A stretch of 46,702 bases of DNA from a virus. Of the stretch, positions 596 through 18,569 are shown piece after piece. The stretch lies in the IMG/VR virus record IMGVR_UViG_3300021378_001736, positions 1 through 46,702 of that record; one strand, 5' to 3'. The notes under the pieces were generated by a model. That model did no database searches, was not told the origin of the DNA, and saw only the letters and a list, made by a program, of their open reading frames with translations. Position numbers and translations under genes: made by a program. How positions within the stretch are numbered: the first letter of the stretch is position 1; each line of letters opens with the position of its first letter.

Positions 596-1997
596 ACCAA
601 TATGGGAAGGTGGTAAAGTACACCCTGATTCTCCTAACAAAGTTTTTTGTACAGCACCTTGGACTCATACATACATAAGTCCTCAATCAGAAAGACGTAT
701 GTGTTGTGCTAGTAGGGAAGAACATAAGTTTCAGAAGCAATATATAGATGCCAGTAACGATGAAAAATATGGAGAAGTAAAAGACTCTGGAAACATAGAA
801 GATTATAAAGCAAATATTGTTACATTAAAAGAACATTGGAATTCACCTTATATGATGGACATTAGAAAGAAACTAATGGCAGGTGAACAAATTCCACAAT
901 GTGATGTGTGCAATGACAGTATATTGAGCCAAAGTACATACAGACAATGGTTTACAGGATTTCTATTTCAAGACAAAATAGACAAATGCTTTGAGGAGAC
1001 AGATGACGATGGAAGAACTACAATGGAGCCTATCTCTTTTGATTATAGGGTTAGTAATTTATGCAATTTTAAATGCCGTATGTGTGGCGAACAACTCAGT
1101 AGCAGTTGGGAAACGGAGAAGAGGAAACACGGTCATTGGTCACCTGAGAACCAACCGTTTATGGTTCCTGAGAACAAGAAGATTATCGAGAAGTTTCAAA
1201 AAGAAGTAGTTGAAGAAGAATTTTGGGATAGTATTTGTAGAGGTATAGTAGAAGAAATATATTGGGTTGGCGGCGAACCATTAATGTATGATATACATTG
1301 GAAGGCTATGGATAGATTAGCAGAAGATGATAACTTACGCAAAGTACATTTACGTTACAACAGTAACCTAAGCAGAGTGAGATATGGTAAGCATTACCTA
1401 TATGACTGGTTGCCACAAGCAAAAGATTGGACTATGTGTGCCAGTATAGATGGTATAGGTTTAATAGGCGAGTTTGTTAGAACAGGATTAGATTGGGATC
1501 AATGGGATAAAAACTTTAGGGAAGGTGTTGCATTACCAGGAGGTAATGACAAAATGCTAATGGACTTAACTATAACAGGCCCAGGTATGTTTGGTTTAAA
1601 AGACTTTTTAGATTACGCCTTAGAATTAGATGTTAAAATAGAAACAAAACGTATGTTTGCATTCCATCCTGACATAGTTTTTAGTCCTATGGCTTGGCCC
1701 AGACATATACTAGATGAAGTTATAAACGACGTCTTAGACTATGCTAGACCCCGTGTAACAGACAAACAACAAACACTTATACGTGAACTAGAGAATATGC
1801 TAGTAACACCTAACTTTGAAGAACAATTTCCAGATACATTTAAGGAATCATTCTTTAGAGGTAGAAGATGGCAGAACACAATAGCAAAAATGCGTACTGA
1901 TGGATCATCTAATAGAAGCATTACTGTTGAACAAATATATGCAGACAATCAAAAGTTACTTGATTGGTGGGAGCAGGAAGAAGATGACCGAAGTTAA
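579..1997 (+). CDS. radical SAM protein with N-terminal auxiliary-cluster-like cysteines
   Basis: The 472-residue protein has the radical SAM signature CNFKCRMC (Cys 162, 166, 169), which binds the catalytic [4Fe-4S] cluster, and a GGEP-type SAM-binding segment (WVGGEPLM). Before this core lie further cysteines: C24 in a FCTAPW context, C42-C43 in MCC, and C108/C111 in CDVC. They look like ligands for a second cluster, as in twitch/SPASM proteins but placed N-terminally. A related enzyme lies at 14135-15421. Such enzymes modify peptides, sugars or other small substrates; the substrate here is not evident. The gene overlaps both neighbours, and the ATG at 579 lies inside the end of the previous gene. 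Confidence 0.8.
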   Translation: MTKRVKPIWEGGKVHPDSPNKVFCTAPWTHTYISPQSERRMCCASREEHKFQKQYIDASNDEKYGEVKDSGNIEDYKANIVTLKEHWNSPYMMDIRKKLMAGEQIPQCDVCNDSILSQSTYRQWFTGFLFQDKIDKCFEETDDDGRTTMEPISFDYRVSNLCNFKCRMCGEQLSSSWETEKRKHGHWSPENQPFMVPENKKIIEKFQKEVVEEEFWDSICRGIVEEIYWVGGEPLMYDIHWKAMDRLAEDDNLRKVHLRYNSNLSRVRYGKHYLYDWLPQAKDWTMCASIDGIGLIGEFVRTGLDWDQWDKNFREGVALPGGNDKMLMDLTITGPGMFGLKDFLDYALELDVKIETKRMFAFHPDIVFSPMAWPRHILDEVINDVLDYARPRVTDKQQTLIRELENMLVTPNFEEQFPDTFKESFFRGRRWQNTIAKMRTDGSSNRSITVEQIYADNQKLLDWWEQEEDDRS

Positions 1998-2577
1998 TCA
2001 CAGAGAATATGTAGGCGGAGATTGGGATAACATCGGAGATTGGCAAATGAAAACATTAAAGCAATTGCCAGAGTTTGATATAGATAAAAAGTTTTTAGAC
2101 ATTGCTTGTGGTAGTTTACGTTTAGGTGTAAAACTTATTCCTTATTTAAACCACGGCAAGTACTTTGGCATAGATAATAATTATGATGTGTTAATGGCAG
2201 GAGTAAATCAGGAACTAGGAGCAGGAAATAATAAATCTCCTAAGTTTTTGTGTAATGGAGAATTTGATTTTAGTTTCTGTGGGCAGTTTGATTTTGCTTG
2301 GAGCAACAGTTTATTTTCACATTTAAATTTAGGTGACATAACAAACTGTATGAAACAACTTAGAAAAGTTGCACACGATGATAGTGTATTTTACTATACA
2401 TTTTTTAATGGAAATTCATCTACTAATCCTTTACACAGTAACGCAAGAAAAGATTTTAGATATAATATAGACGAATTAAGACCTACAGCAGAGAATTGGA
2501 ATTTAGAATTTTTAGGATCCAAATTTCATCACCCAAGAGGGCAACATATAGTGAGATGCACTCCTAAAAGACTATGA
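1984..2577 (+). CDS. class I SAM-dependent methyltransferase
   Basis: The SAM-binding motif I reads FLDIACGSLRLG at about residues 38-49, followed by a KYFGID strand end whose Asp would bind the ribose. This is the Rossmann-like fold of class I methyltransferases. I take the ATG at 1984, inside the end of the radical SAM gene, because the homologous-looking sequence (MTEVNHREYVGG) begins there; an in-frame ATG at 1900 would create an 98-base overlap and a poor N-terminus. That leaves 197 residues. The substrate is unknown. The gene is followed through an ATGA overlap by two more methyltransferases. Confidence 0.7.
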   Translation: MTEVNHREYVGGDWDNIGDWQMKTLKQLPEFDIDKKFLDIACGSLRLGVKLIPYLNHGKYFGIDNNYDVLMAGVNQELGAGNNKSPKFLCNGEFDFSFCGQFDFAWSNSLFSHLNLGDITNCMKQLRKVAHDDSVFYYTFFNGNSSTNPLHSNARKDFRYNIDELRPTAENWNLEFLGSKFHHPRGQHIVRCTPKRL

Positions 2578-3158
2578 AAGATTATTACAATGATGTAGCA
2601 CGTGAAAAGGATTTAACCAAAGGATTCGATTCGTGGAATAATAGGTTAAAAATATGGCTAAGTCCAAAATACAGAGAAAGGTCTTTAGTTATTTTTAACA
2701 AAATAGATGAGTACCTACGCCCTACAGATGCAAAGTTTAACAACATAATGGACATTGGTTGTGGAATTGCACAAATACCTCAACATTTTCAAAACAAATA
2801 TGGTTCTAAATTATTTCTATTAGAAGGATCATATGAAGACAATTATAATTTTTATGGTACCTTAAAGGATATAGATTTTCGTTTAGACAAGCAAGGTCTC
2901 ACAAACTACGAACTAATCGATATATCAAATCTAAAACCAGTTAACCAAAAAATGAATTTAATTTTTTCCTTTCTTGCAGTAGGGCATCATTTTTATGTGA
3001 AGGACTGGATACAATGGATACAAGAACATAGCGACGATAATACTAAAATAATTTTAGACTTAAAAAAAGATAGGTCTTGGAGGTGGAAAAGTATAGAAAT
3101 TGTAGAGGTTATCGAAGAAAGCAAAATAATGTTTTTAGCAGAAGTAAAAATTAAATGA
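2574..3158 (+). CDS. SAM-dependent methyltransferase, first of a tandem pair
   Basis: This 194-residue protein contains a glycine-rich SAM motif (IMDIGCGIAQIP) near residue 60 and a following acidic strand end (LFLLEG). The C-terminal half has LIFSFLAVGHHF and a KIILDL strand, as in class I methyltransferases. It closely matches the next gene in the same positions, including HFQxxYGSxLxLLEG, so the two arose by tandem duplication. It starts within the stop of the preceding gene (ATGA), suggesting coupled translation. The substrate is unknown. Confidence 0.65.
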   Translation: MKDYYNDVAREKDLTKGFDSWNNRLKIWLSPKYRERSLVIFNKIDEYLRPTDAKFNNIMDIGCGIAQIPQHFQNKYGSKLFLLEGSYEDNYNFYGTLKDIDFRLDKQGLTNYELIDISNLKPVNQKMNLIFSFLAVGHHFYVKDWIQWIQEHSDDNTKIILDLKKDRSWRWKSIEIVEVIEESKIMFLAEVKIK

Positions 3159-3700
3159 GAGCAAACTGGAAAGAAAAACTAGCACATTGGAAATCTGTAC
3201 CTTACCAAGACTTTTGCGAGTCAAACTTTAATAAAATAGAAACATACTTGCAAGAAAACTATAAAATATCTTATAACAGTATATGCGACATAGGTTGTGG
3301 TATTGCATCAATGCCCATACATTTTCAAAAACGTTATGGTTCACACCTTTATCTTTTAGAAGGCCAAGGAGCAAACTTTTATATCCCTATGAAGATAATA
3401 GAAGAAGAATTAATAGCACAAAACATAGGTGCATACACTTTATTAGATATCAGTGAGCAAGATTGGAGGAAAGGGTTAAAAGGTGTAAAAGTTGATTTGA
3501 TATTTTCACAATTGGCAGTAGGTTATCATTATGCTATAGAAAATTGGTTAGAAGACATAAAAGAATTAAGCCACAATAATACAAAAATATTTTTAAATTA
3601 TGATTTAAATGCTAACAAAAATTTATTAAAGGGTGCAGAAATAGTACAAGAAGTTTTTAATAACGGAAAGTGTGCTTTAGTAGAAGTAAGAGTTACATAA
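3155..3700 (+). CDS. SAM-dependent methyltransferase, second of a tandem pair
   Basis: This 181-residue paralogue of the previous gene has the SAM motif ICDIGCGIASMP, then LYLLEG and LIFSQLAVGYHY at matching spacing. The N-terminus is shorter and the far C-terminus has diverged, so the pair may have different substrates. It begins by a 4-base ATGA overlap and is the last + strand gene. Its stop codon at 3698-3700 overlaps the end of the convergent gene by 8 bases, leaving no room for a conventional terminator between the two arrays. Confidence 0.65.
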   Translation: MRANWKEKLAHWKSVPYQDFCESNFNKIETYLQENYKISYNSICDIGCGIASMPIHFQKRYGSHLYLLEGQGANFYIPMKIIEEELIAQNIGAYTLLDISEQDWRKGLKGVKVDLIFSQLAVGYHYAIENWLEDIKELSHNNTKIFLNYDLNANKNLLKGAEIVQEVFNNGKCALVEVRVT

Positions 3701-3944
3701 ATAATTTCAAATAAGACATATCTGATTTGTCTTTTAAGAAAAGCATAATCTCATTACTGGCCCAATCAGCACTCAAACTCCAACGTATACCAGGCTGTCC
3801 TAATTTGCTTTTTATAGCATCATACAGTTCATCGTGATTTTCTTTGAATGTGCCAGTTGTTTTAAACAACACGTGGATAGTACATTCGTAATTAGGATGT
3901 ATGGTACTGTTTTTTGCTACAGTATGTTCAACACAATTAATCAT
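3693..3944 (-). CDS. conserved-looking hypothetical protein
   Basis: I do not recognise this 83-residue protein. It has a predicted beta-rich first half (CTIHVLFKTTGTF), a central helix (DELYDAIKSKLG) and a WSLSADWASNEIMLFL segment, compatible with a small alpha/beta domain such as a ferredoxin-like fold. It follows the NadR-like gene by a 4-base overlap and is the last gene of the minus-strand array, converging on the + strand methyltransferase. It is probably real because of the tight coupling and the absence of any better reading frame. Confidence 0.5.
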   Translation of the reverse strand: MINCVEHTVAKNSTIHPNYECTIHVLFKTTGTFKENHDELYDAIKSKLGQPGIRWSLSADWASNEIMLFLKDKSDMSYLKLFM

Positions 3945-4474
3945 ACGTGACGTCTTTCGAAATATTCAAATGCAACATCTACTGCATCATCGTGATGACC
4001 TTTTAAATGAAAGAACGGCAGTTGTTCGTTGTTAAACATTTCCAGTATTGCATTGTCAATCTTAATACAACCTTCTAAGTCTTGTGCCCTTCCTGTTTGA
4101 TTAAAGTTATCTGGTCTGTCTAACATAAAGTTTATATTATCGTATAGGTCATAACACTCTCTTGCCAGTTTGTCGATTAAGTCTGTATATAGTGGACCCT
4201 CATAAAGTTCTCTGTAAATGCCACTCAACAGTACAGGACTGTCTGTTACAACATAATCTACTTTGCCTTGCAGTCTAAGTATTTTTCTGTGTTGGTGTGC
4301 TAACATATATAACTGGTCTTTAAGCATTGGCACATTGTCTTCCCAAACACATTCTTTTGCAAACTCATTAACAAGTTCTACATTATACCCTGCTAAATTC
4401 ATTTTGTAATACATACCTGCGGCTTTAGTACTTTTGCCTGTGTTAGGGCCGCCATAAAAATTTATTACTTTCAT
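3941..4474 (-). CDS. NadR/AAA_28-like P-loop NTPase
   Basis: This 177-residue protein begins almost at once with a Walker A loop (GGPNTGKS, residues 8-15). A DSPVLLSG segment follows near residue 80, where the kinase Walker B or substrate-binding Asp is expected. Layout and length resemble the AAA_28 family, which includes the ribosylnicotinamide kinase domain of NadR and other small-molecule kinases. A role in NAD salvage during infection is possible but is inference; a nucleotide or sugar kinase would look the same. It overlaps the upstream methyltransferase by 4 bases and lies at the end of the transcript that carries the carbamoyltransferase and the large repeat protein. Confidence 0.6.
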   Translation of the reverse strand: MKVINFYGGPNTGKSTKAAGMYYKMNLAGYNVELVNEFAKECVWEDNVPMLKDQLYMLAHQHRKILRLQGKVDYVVTDSPVLLSGIYRELYEGPLYTDLIDKLARECYDLYDNINFMLDRPDNFNQTGRAQDLEGCIKIDNAILEMFNNEQLPFFHLKGHHDDAVDVAFEYFERRHV

Positions 4475-5163
4475 TTGTATCCTATCTGCATAAATCTTGT
4501 GTAAGCAGGTGTAATCATTTCACCTACATAGTGTGTAGTACTTAGTGGGTACTTTTCTTGCATTTCTTCTATATCGGCACATACGTTTATATGCCCTTCA
4601 AAGTCTGGACTATTATTTGTTTGCATAATAATTAGTTGGTCAGAATCTACTGTGTCAAACCAACCGGTGCTCATATGCTCACAACTAGTATTCATAATCC
4701 AATCGGGTTTTGTTTGTATAAGTTCTCCACCAGTTTCAAATTCCATATTAGCACAATCCATCAATTCAACATCTGTAACAACGCCTTTATATTTCCAACT
4801 ATCTTGTACCCAACGTTGATTAAGTTTTTCTGATTTTTCTATTGATTCGGCATCCATATCTAATCCGTAAATACGTTCAATATTGAAATTGATTAATAAC
4901 GGATCAACTAATGTGCCTATCCAACTTCCTAGTATAGCAACTACAGGGTCATCTGTCAACGGTAAAGTGTATAAATCTATAGTGTTTAACTCTCCCAATA
5001 GCCAACTCTTACTTGCTAACTGTCCACTGCTGTAGGCGTGTTTGGGATAATAGTTACCGTGTTGTACTATGTGTTCAAATGTTGACACACGAGGTTTATA
5101 GAATCCTGTGTCTATATAATCTCTAACGTGTTGCCAACTATCTAGTTTTATTGTATTGTTCAT
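4471..5163 (-). CDS. putative SAM-dependent methyltransferase
   Basis: In this 230-residue protein a VAILGSWIGTLVDP loop at about residue 73 is followed by a strand ending in YGLDMD. This is the pattern of motif I plus the acidic strand 2 end in class I methyltransferases. A later PDWIMNTSCEHM segment could be motif IV with the catalytic-site region. The start at 5163 lies 26 bases inside the upstream repeat-protein gene. The glycine-rich loop is less regular than in the three methyltransferases at the left edge, so the assignment is moderate. The substrate is unknown. Confidence 0.55.
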   Translation of the reverse strand: MNNTIKLDSWQHVRDYIDTGFYKPRVSTFEHIVQHGNYYPKHAYSSGQLASKSWLLGELNTIDLYTLPLTDDPVVAILGSWIGTLVDPLLINFNIERIYGLDMDAESIEKSEKLNQRWVQDSWKYKGVVTDVELMDCANMEFETGGELIQTKPDWIMNTSCEHMSTGWFDTVDSDQLIIMQTNNSPDFEGHINVCADIEEMQEKYPLSTTHYVGEMITPAYTRFMQIGYK

Positions 5164-8100
5164 TTAACCACTCATAATTGTTAATCATATTTAATTCTAC
5201 TATATTCATTTTATTCTTATTTGCGAAATCTCTACCTGCCTTTGCTCCTAATTTTGCTTGTTCGCTGAACTTTGCATCAGGTAATGGATTTAACCATTTA
5301 ACTAATCTATCTTTGCTTTCTTGGTCATCTTTGAGTGCAAGTTTAACACATTCTCTAAATGCACTTCTCCAAGTGTCATACTCACTAGTGTTGAATCTTG
5401 TTGTGCAACTTATTTGTGGCATTGCTTTAAAACGTTTGCTAAGTCCTGTTGTAAAGTCTAATCCCCAACTGGTTGCTTCGCGTACTTGCTCAGTGTTAAA
5501 CAATTTAACACCACCATAACCATATTCTTCTCCTGTTACAGGATTACTACTTGCCCAAACGTGAACAACATCTTCGTCATAAACATCTGGTATGTAGTCA
5601 AATGTAAAGTCATCTGATATGTCTGCATCAGCATCAACTACCCAAAACATTTTACTTGTTACTCTACTTGCCGCAACCTTGTGTGCCTCAAAAATACCTT
5701 CAACATCTCTTACCCAAATTAAATTAAAACCAGGATTAACTTGTCTTAATTTGTCTTGTAAATTATTAAAATGCTTATCTGCTAATGGCTCTTTGTAACT
5801 TATATACACAATATCGTTAGTTTTAGTAGTACTACCTACTTCTTTTACATAAGTTAAGTTTCTAAACTTGTTTAATCTTATATCTTCAGATGTAATTTTA
5901 TCGTAATTTATAAATGTGGGCCATAAACGTAATCCACCATAGGCGTGTACTTTGTTTGTTGTACTGTTGAGTTTTTGCCAACAATGTATATTACTTAATT
6001 CTGTTAATCTAGGCATAAAGCCTACATCTAAAATGTCTTTGTTTGTTTTTACATTAGGATCCACAGTCCAAACATATGGTGAATCATTGTTTAGAATAGA
6101 TAGTAAGGTCTGTTTATCAGTGGATTCCAATTCAAACACGGGCCATTTAGGACGCAGGCTTGCCACATTTCGAACCTCTTTGAGGTTGTCGAAACTGTTG
6201 TTGTCAATGTCTTTGTTAGTAAACTTGCTGTTTTTAAACAGTTCAGTTGGTACTAATCTAACATTTCTAAAGTTGTCATCTTCGTCTGCAAAGATGTGTA
6301 ATTTGTCTATATCCCATTGTGTAGGGTAGTAATCAAAGTTAAAGTCTGGATTCAAGTTGGTAAATGTGTCCACAATCCAGAACATATTGGTGTCTGTTTG
6401 GTTCGCTAGACGCTCGTATGTGCCCTGTAACGGCTCCTTATGGTCGTCCGGCTGTATGTGGTATACTGGATATTCGTGTTGCGTACACCCTGGTTTACGC
6501 AAGTATTTGGGCCTACCTGGCTTCTCATTCTTATGGCATAACTGTATGCCGCCATAATCGTATTGCTTGTTTGTTTTAGGGTTTAGTTTTTGCCAAACGT
6601 GACGTTTACCTTCGTCAAATGCATCAGGTTGGAAAGCAAAATCAAAATCTTCTAGTATTGTTACTTCTTCATCCACTACCCAAAACCAGTTATGTGTACT
6701 TTGCTCAACGCCTTGCTCATATGTGTTAAATGTTTCCCACACAATTTCAATTGGTATATTACTACTTGGGGTAAACTCGTGGTTTTTGATTTCACCATTC
6801 CATTCTCCTGGTATCCATCTTACCAATCCACTACCAAATATGTGTACAAATTCTTTTTCAAAAACAGGAGGATTCCAAGTGATAATATCTACATCTATTC
6901 CATTACTCACAAACCAACAATCTTCTGTGGCAGTTTCGTATTCGTCCATTATATCTTTAAATACAATAGGGTAGTTTCTTCCTCCAACAGGATTATCACT
7001 AAAGTACTTTCTTTCATCTGTATTATATTTTACTGGTACTAGTTTTATGCCGCCACATCTATTATCACTTACGTTTTTTATATTACTAGGATACTTGTGA
7101 TCCAAATCCCCTGGCATTTTAAATATGTGTATAAACTTTTTGTCATATGACTGCGGTACATATCTAAACACTTCGTTAATTTGATGTTCTTCGTCTACCA
7201 TCCAAAACATTTTTGTTCTGCTTTTTCTAGCAAATGTTTCATAATCATTTAAGTCGTTTGTATAAAAGATATCATAACGTACAGGAACAACATCTTTTTG
7301 AAACTTATGTTTTGTAATATCAAAATCTTTGTGTACTAGTCTTACACCTCCACATCTATTATCCCAAGCATCGTCTACTTGTAATGGATAACGTTCTTCT
7401 AAATGTCCTGGTATCTTAAACACGTGAATGTATTCTTGTTCGTGACTGCCAGGGACAAATAATAATTTGCCTGTAAATGTGTGCTGTCTATCTACTATCC
7501 AAAACCAATCTGTCTGACTTCTAAGGGCATACTCACTGTAAGTGTCTGCATCAAATTCATCATCGTCAACATAAAATACATCATAGTTTTCATCTTCAAT
7601 TGGACAAGCAGGGTGTATTTTTGTTTCTGCATCTTTCCAATCTTTGGGTACTAAACGTATGCCTCCCATTGCCATTGGATACTTTTCTTCCAGTTGATAA
7701 GGCATTCTAAATGTGTGTAACATTCCATTCTCAAATGGATTAGGAACCCAATCAACTGTTTTAACATTTATTTTATGTTCTTTGTCTATTAACCAAACAT
7801 ATTCATCGGGCAGTATATCACGTTGTACATAATCATTTACATCTTCAACATATAATATAGGGTATGTAATATTTGCATCTAAGAATGTGTGATATTTTGT
7901 ATCTGCTTTTTCCCAATCACGTGGATATAATTTTACTCCACCTTCTATTTCAGGATACTTATGTTCTAGTTGTCCACGCAAATGAAAACTGTGTATAAAG
8001 TTAGGTTCGAAATCACCTGGTGCCCAATTTATATCTTGGTCTAAAACATACTCTGGATCTACACACCAAACGTGAGTAGCAATGTTATTTGCAAAGTAAT

Positions 8101-8425
8101 CTTGCGGAGTTTCTGTGTGTAAAATATCAAAGGACTTTTTGCATTTGATAAAATTATGCCAAACTGTTTCGTTGTTTTCAATTCTAGGGTGTAGCCATAC
8201 ACCTCCATAGGAGTGCTGACTCCATTTCCAAACGTGATTATATTTTTTAGTGTAAGTGTCTGGTTCAAAATCAAAAACTGTGTAGTCAGTAATTTCTATG
8301 TTAGGCTCAACAAACCAAAACATTCTAGTTTTAGATTTTATTTCGTCTTTGGATTTTACTTGTTTTGCAAAAGGAAAATTTTCTAATAGACTTTCGTTGT
8401 TTCCTTGATAAAATATATCAAACAT
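5138..8425 (-). CDS. giant modular protein with ten glycosyltransferase-like repeats
   Basis: This 1095-residue protein is built from about ten copies of one roughly 100-residue module. Each copy has a T-x-MFWxVD-type strand, an acidic turn, an F-x-P segment, a HxF or HxW strand and a closing GGxxLxP strand. The tenth copy reads MFWVVDADADI, which resembles the DxD nucleotide-sugar site of GT-A glycosyltransferases. About 118 residues follow, with a WRSAFRECVKLAL helix. Copies 1, 6, 8 and 9 have lost part of the acidic or GG signature, so most modules may bind rather than catalyse. The gene sits between the carbamoyltransferase (1-base overlap) and a methyltransferase. Glycosyltransfer or glycan binding is inference. 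Confidence 0.7.
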   Translation of the reverse strand: MFDIFYQGNNESLLENFPFAKQVKSKDEIKSKTRMFWFVEPNIEITDYTVFDFEPDTYTKKYNHVWKWSQHSYGGVWLHPRIENNETVWHNFIKCKKSFDILHTETPQDYFANNIATHVWCVDPEYVLDQDINWAPGDFEPNFIHSFHLRGQLEHKYPEIEGGVKLYPRDWEKADTKYHTFLDANITYPILYVEDVNDYVQRDILPDEYVWLIDKEHKINVKTVDWVPNPFENGMLHTFRMPYQLEEKYPMAMGGIRLVPKDWKDAETKIHPACPIEDENYDVFYVDDDEFDADTYSEYALRSQTDWFWIVDRQHTFTGKLLFVPGSHEQEYIHVFKIPGHLEERYPLQVDDAWDNRCGGVRLVHKDFDITKHKFQKDVVPVRYDIFYTNDLNDYETFARKSRTKMFWMVDEEHQINEVFRYVPQSYDKKFIHIFKMPGDLDHKYPSNIKNVSDNRCGGIKLVPVKYNTDERKYFSDNPVGGRNYPIVFKDIMDEYETATEDCWFVSNGIDVDIITWNPPVFEKEFVHIFGSGLVRWIPGEWNGEIKNHEFTPSSNIPIEIVWETFNTYEQGVEQSTHNWFWVVDEEVTILEDFDFAFQPDAFDEGKRHVWQKLNPKTNKQYDYGGIQLCHKNEKPGRPKYLRKPGCTQHEYPVYHIQPDDHKEPLQGTYERLANQTDTNMFWIVDTFTNLNPDFNFDYYPTQWDIDKLHIFADEDDNFRNVRLVPTELFKNSKFTNKDIDNNSFDNLKEVRNVASLRPKWPVFELESTDKQTLLSILNNDSPYVWTVDPNVKTNKDILDVGFMPRLTELSNIHCWQKLNSTTNKVHAYGGLRLWPTFINYDKITSEDIRLNKFRNLTYVKEVGSTTKTNDIVYISYKEPLADKHFNNLQDKLRQVNPGFNLIWVRDVEGIFEAHKVAASRVTSKMFWVVDADADISDDFTFDYIPDVYDEDVVHVWASSNPVTGEEYGYGGVKLFNTEQVREATSWGLDFTTGLSKRFKAMPQISCTTRFNTSEYDTWRSAFRECVKLALKDDQESKDRLVKWLNPLPDAKFSEQAKLGAKAGRDFANKNKMNIVELNMINNYEWLNEQYNKTR
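5495..8425 (-). repeat. ten-copy protein-level tandem repeat array
   Basis: The repeat is seen in the translated protein rather than in the DNA. The core FW/VWxVD element recurs ten times: MFWFVE, HVWCVD, YVWLID, WFWIVD, MFWMVD, CWFVSN, WFWVVD, MFWIVD, YVWTVD and MFWVVD. Each is followed 20-30 residues later by an HxF/HxW strand and then by a GGV/IxL element. Neighbouring copies have diverged strongly, so the array is old rather than a recent expansion. Confidence 0.75.
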
Positions 8426-9954
8426 CAGTCTCTCGTATGTACTGGAACTCCATACTTTTTAGAAAATTCTTTGGCATCTTTAAGGTCATTCACAATAGGC
8501 ATACCTTTGATATTTAAACTGGTGTTGAGTATCATAGGGCAACCTGTTTCCTTATGAAATGCTTTCATCATCTTGTATAAGTCTGGGTGTTGCTGTTTGT
8601 TTACAGTTTGTACTCTGCTTGTACCATCGGCGTGTACAATAGCAGGGAACTCGTCAGGTTTTAAACACTTTGCTGTGTATTGCATATAAGGAGCATTAGT
8701 AATGCCACCTGGCATTTCAAAATACTCGTGTACATATTCTTCTAATATAATAGGAGCAAAAGGTCTAAATTCTTGTCTGCGTTTAATTTTGTTTACAGCA
8801 TCTTTGATTGCTGAGCCTCTAGGATCAGCACATAGGCTTCTGTTGCCTAATGCTCTTGGCCCAAATTCTGCTTTGCCATTTGCTATTCCGAATATTTCAC
8901 CAGCAAGTAAACTTTTCAATCCTTTTTTAACCGGATACTTACCTTCAATGTTATAACCTAAGTACGGAGTAAAGTCTATTTTGTTACCTGTGTGTAAATA
9001 ATTGTGCCAAGCCGCGGCACCCAAACTACTTCCAGCATCACCTGGGTTAGGCATAATGTGTATGTTTTTAAAGTGTTCATATAAGTTGGAGTTTGCAACA
9101 CAATTTAATGCACACCCTCCCATAAACACCAGGTTATCACTGCCTGTTAGTTCTTTTGCATACTCTACATACTTTGATATTCTTTCTTCTGCAACTGCTT
9201 GGACACTTGCCGCGATATCATAATCACGTGCTGTTTGTCCCCATTCATCTTTTTCTAGATGGTCACGTTGTAAGTAGGTGTTAGGTACGCCTTTTACTAA
9301 ATTTACTTTTGTATTAAGGCACGTTGCACCATTAGTACAGTCCTCATCTTTGAAAATATCTATGTCTAAGATAGTTTTGTATATAGGCTCGCCATAAGCC
9401 GCCATTCCCATTAACACATATTCATCTTCTAAAGGCTTTAAGCCAATGTGATGAGTAAATGCTGTATAAAATAAACCTAAACTGTTAGGATAATTAACAT
9501 TGTGTTTAATTTTTAACTTGTTTTTATCCCAATGCCATATTGTTGCAGTATTGTATTCGCCTATACTGTCAATGCACACTACAGCACACTCATCAAAGTC
9601 TGATGTTAATGTTCCTGCCGCGGCGTGTGTTAAATGATGTGGATAACTTTTTATAGGAATGCCTTTTAGTTCAGGCATTATTTGATGCAGGTACCAGTGT
9701 GGTCCTTTTGCCATAGCATCATTATAGTTTTTTGAAAAAAACTGCCTGATTCTCTTTAGCCAATTAAGTTCGTAGTATGCAATTACGTCTGGCTTCTTGC
9801 CGTCTAATGCTTCTTTTAAAAGTTCTCTGCTTAAAAAAGCATCGTTCTTGTGTTTTGAATAACGTTCCGAATGTGTAGCAAATGTAACTACACCATCGTC
9901 TATTACACAGACAGATGCATCGTGACTATAATGACTTAATCCTAATATTCTCAT
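8425..9954 (-). CDS. NodU/CmcH-family carbamoyltransferase
   Basis: The 509-residue protein has the two-part architecture of O-carbamoyltransferases such as NodU, CmcH and TobZ. The N-terminal Kae1-like ATPase/carbamoyl-adenylate domain begins MRILGLSHYSHDAS. It contains HHLTHAA (metal-binding histidines near residue 105), CIDSIGE and MGGCALNC. The C-terminal domain carries EFGPRALGNRS and RPFAPIIL. The reaction uses carbamoyl phosphate and ATP to carbamoylate a hydroxyl, usually on a sugar. Relatives have also been predicted in phage DNA base-modification systems. Context here (a late-type promoter upstream, the repeat protein downstream) favours a glycan target, but this is inference. It overlaps a 48-residue gene upstream by 4 bases. 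Confidence 0.9.
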   Translation of the reverse strand: MRILGLSHYSHDASVCVIDDGVVTFATHSERYSKHKNDAFLSRELLKEALDGKKPDVIAYYELNWLKRIRQFFSKNYNDAMAKGPHWYLHQIMPELKGIPIKSYPHHLTHAAAGTLTSDFDECAVVCIDSIGEYNTATIWHWDKNKLKIKHNVNYPNSLGLFYTAFTHHIGLKPLEDEYVLMGMAAYGEPIYKTILDIDIFKDEDCTNGATCLNTKVNLVKGVPNTYLQRDHLEKDEWGQTARDYDIAASVQAVAEERISKYVEYAKELTGSDNLVFMGGCALNCVANSNLYEHFKNIHIMPNPGDAGSSLGAAAWHNYLHTGNKIDFTPYLGYNIEGKYPVKKGLKSLLAGEIFGIANGKAEFGPRALGNRSLCADPRGSAIKDAVNKIKRRQEFRPFAPIILEEYVHEYFEMPGGITNAPYMQYTAKCLKPDEFPAIVHADGTSRVQTVNKQQHPDLYKMMKAFHKETGCPMILNTSLNIKGMPIVNDLKDAKEFSKKYGVPVHTRD

Positions 9955-10119: not shown

Positions 10120-10127
10120 TATTTATC
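10120..10127 (-). promoter_or_regulatory. late-type phage promoter (GATAAATA)
   Basis: On the minus strand GATAAATA matches the T4 late -10 element TATAAATA at 7 of 8 positions. It overlaps the stop codon of the paralogue at 10123-11541 and lies about 25 bases upstream of the 48-residue gene. It would drive that gene, the carbamoyltransferase, the repeat protein and the genes down to 3693. Two further copies of the same octamer are found at intergenic sites (18574 and 26382). Confidence 0.6.
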
Positions 10128-11541
10128 GGCTAATTATTTCTTCTATTGCTGAAAGTGATTTATCCCATATCTTAATAATTTCATCTTTATTGTAGTACAC
10201 ACTCATATTGTGTCTAAGTTTATCTATAAAAATAGGGTCCTTAAATACTTTGGAATCAAAGTTTTCAAAACTTTGCAGTACTGCTTTCATACGCATTTCA
10301 TCATCTTCTATTTTGTCGTAACTGTTATCTATAAAATCATCTAGTGTATCAAATCCCATACTGCGGAGTGCTTTTAAATGATGAGGAGCACTTGCAATTA
10401 TCTGTGGACGTCCATACATAAGCGGTTTATAACTTTTTTCTGTTACAAATGTTTTGTAATGTTTGTTTTGTGTGTCTACTCCAGGAAATACTCTGTGAAT
10501 ACCTACATCATTTTTACTAAACATTGTTTCACTGGTGAGATGTAATGGCACTTTTTGAATCCATTCAAAAGGCATATATCTATCGTCTATAACTTCTCCT
10601 TTATTTTCATCACAATCGTCTCTAACTTTTATTGGCAGTTTTCTAGCAAATTCATCAAAATCCATAGGCAAGTCACCTAATCGTTCTAATCTCATTTTGA
10701 TACCTTCGATATCATTTGGATTAATTTGCACTTCGTTGTTCTTTCTGTTGTTAATAGTAAATCTTCCTGTGACCATATTCTTAGCAACAAGTCCGTTTGC
10801 TACAGCATACATCAACATATAAATTCTATGTACTTTGGGAGAACGATTTAAAAATATAAAATCGTGTTTCCATTTGTAATCTGTAAACAGAGGATTGTCT
10901 GCTTTAGGTGTAGTAAGTGTATTACTGTCATCACAACAACCTATCTTTCTCATAAAGTTACAACTTCTGGGCCAGTCGTGATATCTAAACCAATTAACGA
11001 ACACAAAGTTTAATTTAAATCTTTCTTTTAAAAACTTGTAAACACTATCATCCGGATATTGTGTAATACTGCCACTTTCCATTACTATAAAGTTTTCTAG
11101 TGTGCCTATTTTGTTAAACAACCAACAAAAGAATTTTTGTGCAATAGGCAAATAAGTTTCGTATACATAATCAAACAACACATAACAGTTGTTGTCTTTA
11201 ATATATTTGTAAAAGTCCAACGGCATTTTTGCGGCTTCCCACAATGGTATCATTACTACTTGCCCGGGTTTTAAATCATAAGCATTATCTAATTTTTCAA
11301 AGTGTACAATATCCTCTGGTAACACCTTATAACGTTTTAATAAATCTACATCAGGCACCACGTGGGGTATTGGTTGCATTGTGATATCAGGATTACCAAA
11401 TGCTCCTGCACCACTTGGACTCATAGGCCAAACTTTGTCGTTGAATTGGAACATCTCTTCAATATTATTTCTAATCTGTTCTATCTTGTCTTTGTTTTTA
11501 TGCCTCATATCAGAGGAATCATAATAGTAAATTTTATCCAT
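10123..11541 (-). CDS. paralogue with GT10-like C-terminal motif (third of a triplet)
   Basis: The C-terminal region of this 472-residue protein reads VTEKSYKPLMYGRPQI, then a LRSMGFDTLDDFID stretch. It recurs in almost the same form in the next two genes. The TEKxxKPxxxxxP pattern resembles the acceptor/donor-site motif of fucosyltransferase-like GT10 enzymes, so a glycosyltransferase is the best guess, with no proof of activity. A FIFLNRSPKVHRIYMLMYA segment is shared with the upstream paralogues (FVCLNNYFKPHRMGIL, TFLNLNRYCKPARYALV). The N-terminal halves differ most and may set specificity. It overlaps the upstream gene by 8 bases. Confidence 0.6.
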   Translation of the reverse strand: MDKIYYYDSSDMRHKNKDKIEQIRNNIEEMFQFNDKVWPMSPSGAGAFGNPDITMQPIPHVVPDVDLLKRYKVLPEDIVHFEKLDNAYDLKPGQVVMIPLWEAAKMPLDFYKYIKDNNCYVLFDYVYETYLPIAQKFFCWLFNKIGTLENFIVMESGSITQYPDDSVYKFLKERFKLNFVFVNWFRYHDWPRSCNFMRKIGCCDDSNTLTTPKADNPLFTDYKWKHDFIFLNRSPKVHRIYMLMYAVANGLVAKNMVTGRFTINNRKNNEVQINPNDIEGIKMRLERLGDLPMDFDEFARKLPIKVRDDCDENKGEVIDDRYMPFEWIQKVPLHLTSETMFSKNDVGIHRVFPGVDTQNKHYKTFVTEKSYKPLMYGRPQIIASAPHHLKALRSMGFDTLDDFIDNSYDKIEDDEMRMKAVLQSFENFDSKVFKDPIFIDKLRHNMSVYYNKDEIIKIWDKSLSAIEEIISR

Positions 11542-12778
11542 TTATTTTATCCATCACCCCTATTAGTATTTTGTGTACAAAATCTTCTTTAAAGAAATGT
11601 TCCCTGTTATGTACTAATTGTTGTTGAGTAACATTGTCATATGTGTCACCTTCAAATGTATTTAAGTGATATATTACAGAATTAACTCTATCGTGTATAT
11701 TTTCGCTTACATCATATCTACTAAACAAGTTATTAAAAGTTGTAAATCCTAAACTGTTTAAGTATTTTGTTATGCCTGGATTACCAATTACCATAAAAGG
11801 TTGGCATAGTGCAATAGGCTTAATTGTTTTTTCTGTAATAAATCCTATTTCTTGATGTGTTTTATCATAACCGAAGTACTCCAATATGTTGCAGTTGTTT
11901 ATAAAGTCGTCATTATAAAAACTTTCTGTTACAACATTTATCATACTGTCTAAAATCCAGTCCTTATTCATCCATCTATCTTGAAAGTTCTCATACAATG
12001 CTTGGTCTTTATTACTTTCTAGGTCGTCTAAAAGCATCGGAAACTTGTTTTTTAGTTCGTCATCTACAAAATTTACACCGTATCTATTCATCTCATCATC
12101 AAAACTAGCCAATGTGATAAGGTTCTTATGCAGTGGATTATCAGGTTCAAACCCCCATCTAGCACTCACGTAGCCTTCGTCTAACAGGTTATTTTTGTAT
12201 AGTTCTATCAATATACCCATTCTATGAGGTTTAAAGTAGTTGTTTAAGCATACAAACTTCTTATTACGTTTATTATCTATCTTTATATCTTGTAATTCGT
12301 CATTAGCAGGTCTGCCACCTTTTTTCATAGTGTGTTGTTCGTTCACAAACCAAAAGGGCCAATGTATAATTGTAGCACCAAAGAATTCTTTTACAAATTT
12401 TACACTATCGTTATTAGGACGTAGTTGAAATCCACTAACAAGTATGAACAAGTTAGACAAGTTTGCTTCTTTGTCTTTTAGTACTGCGATAGTTCTATGG
12501 AATGTAGTAGTCTCTGCTTCTAAACTGTTATCAATAACAACTTTGCCTTTGTCTAATTGTTCTTTAAAATAATCTAAATCAAATTGTATTGCTTCTTGCG
12601 GAGTTACAAATGTAATATCATCTATGTCACTTTCTAAATAGTGTTTATACCATTTTAAAAAGTATAGTTCTGTGTTGTAATGTTCACCGTTTATGTGTGT
12701 TCTTTCTATTTGGTCTACACTAGGATACGCATCAGGCAAGTATTCCCTTTCTTCTTGCATACTTTTTCTTACAACCAT
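11534..12778 (-). CDS. paralogue with GT10-like C-terminal motif (second of a triplet)
   Basis: This is the shortest member of the triplet at 414 residues. It contains CLNNYFKPHRMG and, later, ITEKTIKPIALCQPFMVIG followed by LNSLGFTTFNNLF. A well-placed SD (AGAGG) precedes the ATG at 12778, which overlaps the end of the upstream paralogue by 10 bases. A glycosyltransferase-like role is inferred from the shared C-terminal motif. No signal peptide or transmembrane segment is visible, so it should act in the cytoplasm. Confidence 0.6.
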   Translation of the reverse strand: MVVRKSMQEEREYLPDAYPSVDQIERTHINGEHYNTELYFLKWYKHYLESDIDDITFVTPQEAIQFDLDYFKEQLDKGKVVIDNSLEAETTTFHRTIAVLKDKEANLSNLFILVSGFQLRPNNDSVKFVKEFFGATIIHWPFWFVNEQHTMKKGGRPANDELQDIKIDNKRNKKFVCLNNYFKPHRMGILIELYKNNLLDEGYVSARWGFEPDNPLHKNLITLASFDDEMNRYGVNFVDDELKNKFPMLLDDLESNKDQALYENFQDRWMNKDWILDSMINVVTESFYNDDFINNCNILEYFGYDKTHQEIGFITEKTIKPIALCQPFMVIGNPGITKYLNSLGFTTFNNLFSRYDVSENIHDRVNSVIYHLNTFEGDTYDNVTQQQLVHNREHFFKEDFVHKILIGVMDKING

Positions 12779-14148
12779 TGTAACCTCTTTAATAAGTTTG
12801 TTGTTATTCTTTTTACTATTGTGGCATCTAACATATGATTTCTATTATGTATAATCTTCTCTTTTGTTATATGGTCATAATGCAGTGGCATTTCAAAATT
12901 GTCTATTTGCTCACATACTGCTTTAAATCTCAAATGTCTATCCTGTATTGTGTCATAAGTTTCATCAAATAAATTATCAAATGTTTCAAACCCTAAACTT
13001 TTTAAATGTGCAAGTGTACCTGCTTGTCCACATATCAAGAAAGGATGTCCACAGTAGATAGGCTTGTATGTTTTCTCAGTAACAAATAATAAATCATAAG
13101 GATCTATTTTAAAATCACTTGCACCTGTATGACAAACAATATAATCGTCAAAGTAACTTTCTGATACTAGACTATAAAAACTCTGTTCATACCAATCTTT
13201 ATTGTTATGCCTATCTGTTTGGTAAATACTCTCTAACTCTTCTTCTACTTTTATAGGATAATGTTTATCCAAAGTAGACACAATATTAAAAGTGTTTATG
13301 CCTAAATCCCCTGCTAGTTCGTGAAACCAACTTGCACCACTATCTAAGTCACTAATAAATTGTGCTATGTTATCATTAAACTCTATATCGTCTTTAGTAG
13401 ATGTACTCCACCTCGCACTTATTATAGCATCATTTGTGTAACCTTTCAACCTACAATATTCAACCAGTGCGTATCTGGCAGGCTTACAGTATCTATTTAA
13501 ATTTAAGAAGGTGTGACTTTTGGGTATATCTAAATCAGCAGGGTCGAACCTTATAGGCAACTTCATAGGAAAATGTCTGTCATCATAAAACTGTCCGCTT
13601 TGAAACCAGGCTTCATACATTCTAAAAAAGTCTGTATCTATAATATCGCACCCAAACTCTTTTTGTAGTCCAAACATAAGTTTATCATTTTTTGCAACAC
13701 TACCTATTAAAAGTTTTAAGTTTTTATTTGGTAATATTCCTTGCTGTTTTAGATACTTAAACAATCTACCAAAGTACCAAAATGCATCACATTCATAACT
13801 GTGGTCTATTAATACTTGCACACCTTTTGCTAATAGTTCACCATACCATTCTGCAGGTAAGTGTAAAACAAATCTATTAGGTACAGATATTGTATCGCCT
13901 TCTCGCAGTCTAGTTAAGGCTTCTTCTGGTTTTACAGAACGGGTATCAAGCATAAGTCCACAAGCATATTCTGTATGCTCTAACTTTTTCATCCAATGTA
14001 AAAATACACTAGGTGCTTGATGAAATGATGTTCCGTGTATAACTTCTTTTGTTGGATTTAAGTCTTCAGTACCGTTGAAATAGTACGAACAAGGTTCGTT
14101 TGTGATACTGTTATCGCGAATTATGTAAACTTTTTTAAACTGTTTCAT
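12769..14148 (-). CDS. paralogue with GT10-like C-terminal motif (first of a triplet)
   Basis: I start this gene at the ATG at 14148 (MKQFKKVYII), which overlaps the end of the radical SAM gene by 14 bases; an in-frame ATG at 14199 would lengthen the overlap to 65. The product is 459 residues. It has LNLNRYCKPARY in the middle and VTEKTYKPIYCGHPFLICG near the C-terminus, followed by LKSLGFETFDNLFDETYD. Of the three copies it keeps the motif best. The three genes sit head to tail just downstream of a radical SAM enzyme, which suggests related substrates. Glycosyltransferase activity is inference. Confidence 0.6.
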   Translation of the reverse strand: MKQFKKVYIIRDNSITNEPCSYYFNGTEDLNPTKEVIHGTSFHQAPSVFLHWMKKLEHTEYACGLMLDTRSVKPEEALTRLREGDTISVPNRFVLHLPAEWYGELLAKGVQVLIDHSYECDAFWYFGRLFKYLKQQGILPNKNLKLLIGSVAKNDKLMFGLQKEFGCDIIDTDFFRMYEAWFQSGQFYDDRHFPMKLPIRFDPADLDIPKSHTFLNLNRYCKPARYALVEYCRLKGYTNDAIISARWSTSTKDDIEFNDNIAQFISDLDSGASWFHELAGDLGINTFNIVSTLDKHYPIKVEEELESIYQTDRHNNKDWYEQSFYSLVSESYFDDYIVCHTGASDFKIDPYDLLFVTEKTYKPIYCGHPFLICGQAGTLAHLKSLGFETFDNLFDETYDTIQDRHLRFKAVCEQIDNFEMPLHYDHITKEKIIHNRNHMLDATIVKRITTNLLKRLQWL

Positions 14149-15421
14149 TCGGTACGTCTGTGTAAACATTGTGTCTTTCACAGGCGTCAACAAACTCACT
14201 AAAAGTTTCTCTCCAAGATTGTTTTCTGGTTTTATCTAGTAGGTCGTTAAACCTTATAAATTGTTTCCAACCTAACTCGTCCCAGGTGTCTGTGTTGTAC
14301 ATTTGCTTTATGTCATTATAAGAATGGTCACCATTAAAAGCAGGCTCTATTCTTTGTATAATCTCTTTCCTAATCTCAGGGTGTATAACATTAGGACTTA
14401 AATATGTTGGATCATATACTGGGTTTATATGATTGTGTAAATTTCTTTCGTTTGTGAATGTTTTAAATTCGTCTAAATAGAAAAAGTTGTAGGCACTAAC
14501 TGTTTGGCAAACACTTGTTTCTATCCATTTCTCTTCTTGTAGCATATTTAAATGTTTAATAACATCTGACCACTCTGTGGGATATCTAATAAATTTGTTT
14601 CTATGGTCAATACAGTCTATACTACTGCTAACCATTACTTTACCAAAGTTGGGCCATAGGTCAAATGCTTCATTTGGTAACTGTGTCATATTAATATTAT
14701 ACCACAATGTAATGTTTTTTGCTCTATCTCCTTCTATTAAATCTCTGAGGTATTTCCAATGTGCTTTAATTAGTGTAGGTTCTCCGCCGTTAATATAAAT
14801 TACTTCTACATTAGGTGCTGACTTGTACAAGTCCTTATAAAAGTTTTCATCTTCGGGCCATTCAAAATCTTTCTTTTGGTCTAGCCACGTATAGCCTTCA
14901 TTAACGAATTCCAACTCTTCATACACTTTCTTATAATCAGCAACCCACCTTGAAGAACTTGCAGGATTGCAAGTACGACAACGGACATTACATACATTAC
15001 CAAGACGCAGTTCAATAAAACGAAGATCCAAATCCACCACACCGTCTTCGTTAGTAAGTTGGATCGCTCGTATCTTGTCGAACTCGGGATAATTCTTGGT
15101 CTCTTCAATTCGCTTACTTGTAATTCCTTTGTCTTCTTCATCATAGCACCTCGTACACGCCTTTGGCATTTCATTGTTCAACATCTTAAGTCTTACATCT
15201 TTATAGTAATCACTATTCATATGTTGGTCAATTGAATGTTGATTTAAATTATAAAACTGATGGCCCTTTACACTTTCTGGGTCTTTGTTTGTTTCTGAAA
15301 AATCTCTTGCTCTGTTGCCTCCATCTGTCATATCACTTACACAACATAATGTAACACCACCGTGAGGGTGTGTGCCCAAGTGCATCCAAGGTAAAGGACA
15401 ATATGTATCTTTATTCTTCAC
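14135..15421 (-). CDS. radical SAM protein with N-terminal auxiliary-cluster-like cysteines
   Basis: This 428-residue protein has the radical SAM motif CNVRCRTC (Cys 144, 148, 151) and a YINGGEPTL SAM-binding segment. The N-terminus carries C8 in a CPLPW context, C26-C27 in LCC, and C89/C92 in CTRC. These match the positions in the enzyme at 579-1997, so the two belong to one family despite lying on opposite strands. The chemistry is probably a radical modification of a peptide or sugar; the substrate is unknown. The gene overlaps both neighbours by 11-14 bases. Confidence 0.8.
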   Translation of the reverse strand: MKNKDTYCPLPWMHLGTHPHGGVTLCCVSDMTDGGNRARDFSETNKDPESVKGHQFYNLNQHSIDQHMNSDYYKDVRLKMLNNEMPKACTRCYDEEDKGITSKRIEETKNYPEFDKIRAIQLTNEDGVVDLDLRFIELRLGNVCNVRCRTCNPASSSRWVADYKKVYEELEFVNEGYTWLDQKKDFEWPEDENFYKDLYKSAPNVEVIYINGGEPTLIKAHWKYLRDLIEGDRAKNITLWYNINMTQLPNEAFDLWPNFGKVMVSSSIDCIDHRNKFIRYPTEWSDVIKHLNMLQEEKWIETSVCQTVSAYNFFYLDEFKTFTNERNLHNHINPVYDPTYLSPNVIHPEIRKEIIQRIEPAFNGDHSYNDIKQMYNTDTWDELGWKQFIRFNDLLDKTRKQSWRETFSEFVDACERHNVYTDVPNETV

Positions 15422-16418: not shown

Positions 16419-17236
16419 TAGTCGTCCTTAAGTTGTTTGTGTCCATATTCTGTATCAATGTGGTAAGGTTGGTTTTTATCTTTGTCATACCAATATAAAC
16501 TTTTATGTGGAGGATCTCTCCAATCGTGTTTACTATCACTGATATAGTAAAAGAATCTAAATCCTACTCTAAATCTATCATCTGGGCAATCGATTGGATT
16601 AGGATGTCCGTGAAAACCTCTTTTGTGATATTTCCACAGAACCATATTACCCATCTTTGGAGGATAACTTACAACTTTACGTTTCTTTTCAAAATCCCAA
16701 AACTGTAAATCACCGTGCCATTCAGGCTTCCAATCAGGTGTAAAGTATAGTATTAAACTTAATGCTCTGTGTGTTTGACATTCTTCGTTCCAGTTAAAAT
16801 CTGTGTGTACTTTTAAACTATCACCTTTGTAACTTTTCATATAACCAGCACCAACCAAATACGGGTCTGGTAATAAATGTTGTACGTCTGCAATTTTAGA
16901 TAACCACATCAAAAACTCTCTGCTGTGAAATGCACTTACCAACTGTCTGGCAACTGGTGCCTCGGTTAAGTCTTTACACTCTTCCATATAACTATCCGCT
17001 CTAGTAAATGCTGTCCAATAATCTTTAGGTATTGTTTTACTTTCTTCGTATAGTAGTTTGCTAAGTTGAGGTGGTATAAACTCGTCAAGACTCAGGGTAG
17101 GATAAGGAGGGGTATAGCGATATTGTTCATTTAAATCACGTTCCTTATCCTTATATTTTGTGAATATATATTCTAAAATTTCTGAGTCTCTCAAAGTTCT
17201 CTCCCTATCTAGGTGCTGATGCCCTAGTGTTTCCAT
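16418..17236 (-). CDS. 2OG-Fe(II) oxygenase (prolyl-4-hydroxylase type)
   Basis: The Fe(II) site is visible as HTD (about residues 144-146 from the 17236 start), a distal His in GFHGHPNP and an Arg in RVGFRFF that would hold 2-oxoglutarate. This is the order in prolyl-4-hydroxylase-type oxygenases. Such enzymes hydroxylate proteins, sugars or other substrates using O2 and 2-oxoglutarate. The start is uncertain: ATG 17236 overlaps the dehydrogenase gene by 32 bases, ATG 17287 by 83, and a TTG at 17194 is preceded by a strong AGGGAG. The gene lies between the UDP-sugar dehydrogenase and a hypothetical gene. Confidence 0.75.
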   Translation of the reverse strand: METLGHQHLDRERTLRDSEILEYIFTKYKDKERDLNEQYRYTPPYPTLSLDEFIPPQLSKLLYEESKTIPKDYWTAFTRADSYMEECKDLTEAPVARQLVSAFHSREFLMWLSKIADVQHLLPDPYLVGAGYMKSYKGDSLKVHTDFNWNEECQTHRALSLILYFTPDWKPEWHGDLQFWDFEKKRKVVSYPPKMGNMVLWKYHKRGFHGHPNPIDCPDDRFRVGFRFFYYISDSKHDWRDPPHKSLYWYDKDKNQPYHIDTEYGHKQLKDD

Positions 17237-18533
17237 AATGTACAACCTGTATTCCCATTGTGCTAGGAAGTTTTCTCCAAGGATCAACTACCACACTACC
17301 TGGTGCAAACTGTATTGATGAACCGTTTGCTGTTTCTACAGTTAAGGCTTCATCTGCCTGCGATACATTTTTGTTATCGTACCACCCTGGTACGTTATCT
17401 AATTGGTCTCCGTAGGTTATTTGCGGATTATGAGCCAACAAATAAACTGCTGGATTTTCTAATATTTCTTGGGGAGGTATCTCACCACAAACTTCATCAT
17501 AATAATAAAGTTGTGTTCCCAATTTTTCTACATAGTGTCCAACTAACATACTGCTCGAACCTGCTTCATAAGGCACTAACGGTTTGTATGCTTTTCCAAC
17601 TATAATAATTGGCAATGCAGGTACTTCCCCATAAACAGGGTGTACGTCACTTGCCAGTTCTACTAGTTTCTTTGCCATATTTTCTGCTTGTACTTCTCTA
17701 GAAAGCATCACAGCATCAAACAAATCATAACCTAAATCTAGTTCTTCTGCCATCCAACGTAGGGCAATGTTATCACGTGGGTGACAAGCACCTCCGTCTC
17801 CCATACCTGGCTTCATATAACCGGGTCCCATAATACGTCTATCACTAGTTGCAAGTGCATCACACACTAGTTCACTATTAATATTACCTTGCTTTTCAGC
17901 AACGTCTTGAATCATATTAACTAAACTTACTTTTGCAGATATAAATGTATTATAAAATACTTTGATACATTCACATTCGTCCCAAGTTCCAATTACATAC
18001 TTGGGGTCGTTCTGCATAATTGTTTTATAAAAGTCTACAAGTTCTTTTGCATCACCTGTTTCACTTCCATTTTCAGTTCCAATCATTACCATTTCTGGAT
18101 TAACCATATCCCACTTGACTGTGCCCATAGCAATTAAGTATGGATTATACACAAATCTAGCATTTGGTATTAGGTCAACCAGTTGCCCTCGAACTGTTCC
18201 GGGCAAGACTGTTGATATTAGGACTACTAACTGTTCTTTTGTCGCCACAGCATTTACCTGGCTAAGAACTTTTTTCACCGTCGAGTAGTCAAAGTCTTTA
18301 TTAGGTAAATGGCTGGTAGGTGCCTTGCCATCATATTGTGGGTCGTGGGGTGTTTCCACCGCAACAAATATAATATCTCTTCCTGTAACTGCTTCTTCTA
18401 GTGTTCCCACCATTGAAAAGTTATCAGGTTCTCTAGGATTGATATCATATCCTACAACGTGATGAACCTCGGCGACCATCTCGGCGCAGGCTTGTCCTAA
18501 CTTGCCAACACCAATAAATCCGATTGAGGCCAT
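17205..18533 (-). CDS. UDP-glucose/GDP-mannose dehydrogenase family protein
   Basis: The 442-residue protein starts with an NAD-binding GVGKLG loop (residues 8-13). It has the catalytic-Cys region GDGGACHPRDN (Cys 250) and a C-terminal UDP-binding-type domain ending in VVDPWR. The family oxidises the C6 of a nucleotide sugar to a uronate in two NAD-dependent steps. The CHPRD context differs slightly from the usual CxPKD. I start at ATG 18533, with AAGGAG before it, rather than at 18560. It is the first gene of a transcript led by a late-type promoter and a 16-base palindrome. It could supply a sugar acid to the glycosyltransferase-like proteins. Confidence 0.85.
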   Translation of the reverse strand: MASIGFIGVGKLGQACAEMVAEVHHVVGYDINPREPDNFSMVGTLEEAVTGRDIIFVAVETPHDPQYDGKAPTSHLPNKDFDYSTVKKVLSQVNAVATKEQLVVLISTVLPGTVRGQLVDLIPNARFVYNPYLIAMGTVKWDMVNPEMVMIGTENGSETGDAKELVDFYKTIMQNDPKYVIGTWDECECIKVFYNTFISAKVSLVNMIQDVAEKQGNINSELVCDALATSDRRIMGPGYMKPGMGDGGACHPRDNIALRWMAEELDLGYDLFDAVMLSREVQAENMAKKLVELASDVHPVYGEVPALPIIIVGKAYKPLVPYEAGSSSMLVGHYVEKLGTQLYYYDEVCGEIPPQEILENPAVYLLAHNPQITYGDQLDNVPGWYDNKNVSQADEALTVETANGSSIQFAPGSVVVDPWRKLPSTMGIQVVHYGNTRASAPR

Positions 18534-18553
18534 TCTCTTCTCCTTAAATTTAT

Positions 18554-18569
18554 ACAGCAATATTGCTGT
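18554..18569. repeat. perfect 16-bp palindrome in a leader
   Basis: ACAGCAATATTGCTGT is a perfect inverted repeat between the late-type promoter and the SD of the dehydrogenase gene. In RNA it would form a 6-bp stem with an ATAT loop near the 5' end of the transcript. It could stabilise the mRNA, tune translation or bind a dimeric protein. Confidence 0.6.

Follow-up and report, generated by a model that had tools for sequence, protein, structure and literature searches.

The DNA analysed (hereafter the window), a virus record of 46.7 kb, encodes a putative repeat glycosyltransferase on the minus strand at positions 5138-8425. The gene contains no internal stop codons and specifies a protein of 1095 residues (130 kDa, pI 5.2) in which no transmembrane-like stretch was found (maximum 19-residue hydropathy 0.58). 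The DNA polymerase of the window is nearest to that of Sinorhizobium phage Phosso (48.6%), followed by that of Agrobacterium phage Atu_ph07 (45.6%), both large phages of 470-490 kb, and one locus of the window's own clade (L024) lies on a 250 kb contig.

The repeat gene is part of an operon and is overlapped at both ends. The sequence TGATG is shared with the gene upstream, which encodes a NodU-type O-carbamoyltransferase (8425-9954, minus strand), and the gene for a methyltransferase-like protein (4471-5163, minus strand) runs over the 3' end; next in the operon, with an ATGA overlap, is the gene for an AAA_28 P-loop kinase-like protein (3941-4474, minus strand). Neighbourhoods were counted over 28 loci with seven or more modules, at which the carbamoyltransferase was present in 23, the methyltransferase-like gene in all 28 and the kinase-like gene in 10. 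The methyltransferase-like gene was also present in 44 of 77 loci outside this set; its product gave no Pfam or NCBIfam match and is 25% identical to Mosig_00090, annotated as a putative methyltransferase. Farther away on the minus strand are a twitch-domain radical SAM/SPASM protein (14135-15421), whose family is found beside the repeat gene in 22 of the 28 loci, and a UDP-glucose dehydrogenase-like protein for sugar nucleotide supply (17205-18560); epimerase genes are also carried by the window. Three consecutive methyltransferase-like genes on the plus strand (1900-3700) have no homologue near the repeat gene elsewhere.

Ten unequal modules

A profile built from ten hand-cut units of the protein recovered ten copies in it, whose domain E-values ranged from 1e-12 to 4e-27. 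When the units were left out in turn and compared with a profile of the remaining nine (a jackknife), they scored 16.9-76.6 bits, against maxima of 5.7-11.6 bits for shuffled-unit controls (200 per unit), by which chance resemblance between the modules was ruled out; the terminal module, when held out, scored 58 bits against the profile of the nine internal modules. The ten-unit profile also found 9-13 copies in independent homologues, indicating that the repeat is not a single-sequence artefact. BLASTP self-comparison gave no off-diagonal match: pairwise identity among the ten copies averages only 26% (13-39%), so that BLASTP alone is blind to the repeat and profiles are needed. The profile and jackknife results, together with a secondary structure that repeats, ruled out a single non-repetitive fold. 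The full-length model (mean pLDDT 84.4, pTM 0.47) shows the internal modules in the same strand-helix-strand-strand-strand order as the terminal domain; at this pTM the arrangement of the modules relative to one another is not predicted.

All modules lie on the minus strand. Module 1 (residues 1-92; 8150-8425) has an extra N-terminal strand-helix, and module 2 (residues 93-182; 7880-8149) shares 68-75% identity with its counterpart in the closer homologues. These are followed by module 3 (residues 183-276; 7598-7879), module 4 (residues 277-379; 7289-7597), module 5 (residues 380-481; 6983-7288), the short and poorly conserved module 6 (residues 482-561; 6743-6982), which is the site of copy-number variation among relatives, module 7 (residues 562-647; 6485-6742), module 8 (residues 648-757; 6155-6484) and module 9 (residues 758-867; 5825-6154). 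The terminal module together with its catalytic C-half (residues 868-1095; 5141-5824) makes up a complete domain of predicted GT-A-like fold.

An earlier note, made from the sequence, had described ten diverged copies of one module, each carrying the full set of motifs, and had proposed self-alignment as a check. The ten copies were borne out by the profile and jackknife and by the homologues. However, the units are unequal, as only the last one is extended, by about 115 further residues that complete a full domain. W, P and H are invariant in all ten copies, but two of them (6 and 8) have lost the GG and copy 6, at 61 aa, is short, so that the note's "each" goes slightly too far. The internal modules are homologous to part of the 226-residue terminal domain, matching approximately its residues 31-112; they are half-domains without the C-terminal catalytic half and are therefore unable to form a complete active site alone.

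The terminal domain and its motifs

The terminal domain (226 residues modelled) was predicted by AlphaFold with a pLDDT of 90.4 and a pTM of 0.83. Its PDB fold matches at E<=1e-3 were nearly all GT-A glycosyltransferases or GT-A-like nucleotidyltransferases, led by WrtF, HddC, the PBCV-1 capsid glycosyltransferase, PcManGT, TarS, ArnC and SunS. These matches reached an E-value of 2.9e-5 with a probability of 1.00, yet are distant, with TM-scores normalised by query of about 0.33-0.48. The terminal domain is accordingly given here as a predicted GT-A fold. At the level of sequence, no significant Pfam, PHROG or NCBIfam family match was obtained for the repeat protein, including none above cut-off to Pfam glycosyl transferase family 2 (PF00535/PF13704), to which a paralogue at L023 gave sub-threshold matches only (E 0.02); a PDB sequence search with the terminal-domain profile returned nothing naming a glycosyltransferase.

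A DxD motif is found at D931-A-D933 (5627-5635, minus strand). Among the relatives examined, D[A/G]D is present in 48 of 48 terminal modules of repeat proteins and in 75 of 75 single-module proteins, a conservation from which the motif is likely to be the site for the metal and the sugar nucleotide. In contrast, of 276 internal modules only 59 have D.D, mostly in the form DPD or DRD, and D[A/G]D is found in none of modules 1-9 of the window protein, whereas the H and W are retained in more than 90% of internal modules. Some of the internal modules that bear D.D may bind sugar nucleotides.

The catalytic C-half, taken as the region C-terminal to GGVKL, is present in a single copy in 60 of the 61 multi-module ORFs and in two copies in the remaining one (L105); in all 61 the last module is followed by a copy. 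Its invariants are GYGGVKL and F-R-E, and the C-terminal His is not invariant. The common core of GT-A enzymes includes an xED catalytic base, a G-loop glycine and a C-terminal His (PMC7185993); GYGGVKL and F-R-E could be the equivalents of the G-loop and the xED. Sugar transfer would be carried out by the terminal domain.

The earlier note had placed a DxD-like site in the last copy, and reported a loss of acidic residues from several earlier ones, in agreement with the invariant D[A/G]D and the sparse internal D.D. It had also suggested structure prediction, by which the last copy belongs to a GT-A domain. Its picture of a chain of one likely active and many degenerate glycosyltransferase-like domains was upheld in that the terminal domain is a predicted GT-A fold and the others are homologous to it and degenerate, but needed correction in that these others are half-domains.

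Relatives, copy number and selection

No relatives were found in viral contigs with the whole protein or with a module alignment as the query, whereas the terminal domain retrieved the family: the C-terminal 246 residues gave 23 viral loci, and a scan of viral contigs with the terminal-domain alignment gave at least 599 matching stretches, of which 597 were confirmed and 80 loci were kept. The family is thus common in uncultured aquatic viruses, yet was not detected at tblastn sensitivity in 50,697 phage records, Pelagibacter phage Mosig included; a scan of GTDB genomes identified only five loci. Whole-length fold matches were obtained to two UniProt/BFVD proteins from uncultured Caudovirales phages, A0A6J5L5L5 (1076 aa, E 4e-45) and A0A6J5LK21 (804 aa, E 9.5e-38); both are uncharacterised and unnamed, show no apparent difference from the window protein and evidently belong to the same repeat-enzyme family.

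Among the relatives listed, the module count forms a ladder from 1 to 13. In the closest homologues, each of modules 1-5 and 7-10 has a counterpart at the same position, mostly at 40-84% identity, compared with about 25% among copies within one protein, and length differences are chiefly around module 6. A different pattern is displayed by L022 (4956-8711), which has eleven modules, most of the internal ones near-identical 100-residue copies (mean identity 68%, maximum 96%), representing a recent tandem expansion or possibly an effect of assembly. L040 and L068, with mean internal module identities of 47% and 40%, are probably separate expansions. In a Bdellovibrionales MAG (L105, 1362-8675), family members lie in one cassette with one virion-like and one radical SAM protein, adjoining genes read by eye as pheS/pheT and rimM/trmD; this is apparently an integrated phage cassette.

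The ratio dN/dS was estimated for each internal module over eight homologue pairs and was about 0.01-0.33 where dS was measurable, similar to that of the catalytic part; several more distant pairs were saturated at synonymous sites and gave no ratio. Every internal module is therefore under purifying selection and does something, from which it does not follow that the chain holds a polymeric acceptor along its length, as the earlier note had suggested it could. A pseudogene or junk repeat was ruled out by these values. Between L010 (5382-8714) and L011 (5736-9050), modules 3-7 are nearly identical in DNA whereas modules 1-2 have diverged to a dS of about 2, indicating recombination within the repeat gene.

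Proposed role of the module array

An active GT-A domain in tandem with a related inactive one is known from human LH3/PLOD3 and mimivirus R699 (PMC6082870; PMC11838735), and an inactive GT-A protein, COSMC, serves as a chaperone (PMC7185993). Both LH3 and R699 were among the top hits when the full-length model was searched by fold, and the window family shares with PLOD/LH3, in its sequence features, the trait of one active-type domain plus degenerate GT-A-related domains in one chain. However, LH3 and R699 have one whole accessory domain, at the C terminus, whereas the window family has up to twelve half-domains, at the N terminus, and no PLOD/LH3-type sequence match to the window protein was found in Pfam or, with the terminal-domain profile, in the PDB; the repeat protein may work like such an enzyme without being one. 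In the PDB fold comparison, the full chain matched best to the E. coli K4 chondroitin polymerase (K4CP, 2z86), with tandem GT-A domains. K4CP consists of two full GT-A domains; it is not a repeat array and has no sequence match to the window protein. Among single-domain proteins, those nearest in fold to the terminal domain were the PBCV-1 capsid glycosyltransferase (2p6w/2p72), which glycosylates a virus capsid, the fucosyltransferase WrtF and HddC; the PBCV-1 enzyme and WrtF have no internal repeat and are 12-14% identical (TM-score normalised by query about 0.37-0.44). The literature searched contained no report of tandem or pseudo-glycosyltransferase repeats in phages, nor did it or the databases consulted describe an architecture with an array of half-domains.

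The reading we prefer, at a probability of roughly 0.6, is that of a viral GT-A enzyme with a non-catalytic array of pseudo-GT-A half-modules, which most likely binds the acceptor or partners. The C-terminal 228 residues would form the single catalytic domain, with the DxD site holding a metal ion and a sugar nucleotide as donor. The nine preceding modules would be duplicates of part of this domain, namely the strand-helix-strand and the HxF/W and GGxxL strands, that no longer carry the catalytic half-domain and in most cases lack the acidic pair as well. By gripping the acceptor or partner enzymes, the array would allow one active site to work repeatedly on a long or multivalent substrate. 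A decorated glycan as product is implied by the carbamoyltransferase, methyltransferase-like, radical SAM and UDP-glucose dehydrogenase genes, and, because virion-like and tail-fibre genes are close neighbours of the gene in many relatives, the acceptor we favour is a protein of the virion surface. At 29 loci, mainly of 1-6 modules, a repeat-family gene has a virion-like gene, in one or two copies, within a few kb, and at L014 a tail-fibre gene (phrog_19602, E 7.8e-19) precedes the virion-like genes. In the window's clade, the virion-like gene and a single-domain paralogue of the enzyme are some 5 kb apart in five of six contigs searched, and the repeat gene is more than 8 kb from the virion-like genes (about 27 kb in G001). 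A more specific version, in which a long acceptor, either a virion fibre or a polysaccharide, would be delivered to the one active site by up to twelve half-domains and array length would be set by acceptor geometry, is advanced only tentatively. An array acting as a ruler for the virion-like protein was rejected, as no trend between the length of that protein and module count was seen by eye in the loci inspected.

The same enzyme might instead act on a host surface polysaccharide, remodelling the O-chain to exclude competing phages while the modules bind the chain. Related pelagimyophages carry a host recognition cluster of tail fibres, glycosyltransferases, radical SAM cassettes and UDP-glucose dehydrogenase, read by its authors as O-chain modification (PMC7029224), and the UDP-glucose dehydrogenase and epimerase genes of the window would suit this; Mosig has a similar neighbourhood of a carbamoyltransferase, a putative methyltransferase, VrlC and hypothetical proteins, some with GT-A-like motifs by eye. 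The repeat protein nevertheless lacks a membrane anchor and many relatives are near virion-like genes, and we regard a host acceptor as rather unlikely. Somewhat less probable still is a docking platform in which each module binds a neighbouring pathway enzyme (carbamoyltransferase, methyltransferase-like or radical SAM) and not the acceptor: the position-specific modules of the window's clade suggest different partners and the operon neighbours are constant, but the near-identical modules of L022 better suit repeated binding of one ligand, and single-module relatives keep the same neighbour types.

A multi-site enzyme, in which the internal modules would bind sugar nucleotides as active or semi-active domains, is improbable, despite the D.D kept in a minority of them and their H and W, given that nearly all are without the fold-completing C-terminal half and that modules 1-9 of the window protein have no D[A/G]D. 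Least credible is a non-functional expansion, with decaying copies tolerated in a large phage genome; a copy number ranging from 1 to 13 would fit it, but the low dN/dS of the internal modules and the intact reading frame of the window gene contradict it.

One dead and one live copy of a fold is a known arrangement; up to a dozen half-copies is undescribed in the literature searched. If the tentative version above is true, in which half-folds form an extendable recognition array, the protein would represent a new class of pseudoenzyme repeat proteins. The ladder of module counts constitutes a natural experiment in how catalytic folds become repeat binding proteins, and bears on how a phage might processively glycosylate long fibres or polysaccharides.

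Several other genes of the window were recorded. Three consecutive unmatched proteins (472, 414 and 476 aa; 10123-14199) share a VTEK..KP motif that is by eye reminiscent of GT10 fucosyltransferases. The gene at 18589-19545 matched the PHROG galactose-3-O-sulfotransferase (E 1.7e-5, with a sub-threshold Pfam match) and is a possible sulfotransferase, a hint of a sulfated glycan. A 221-aa protein with no assigned function (19931-20596; phrog_15894) is found near the cluster in 28 other loci.
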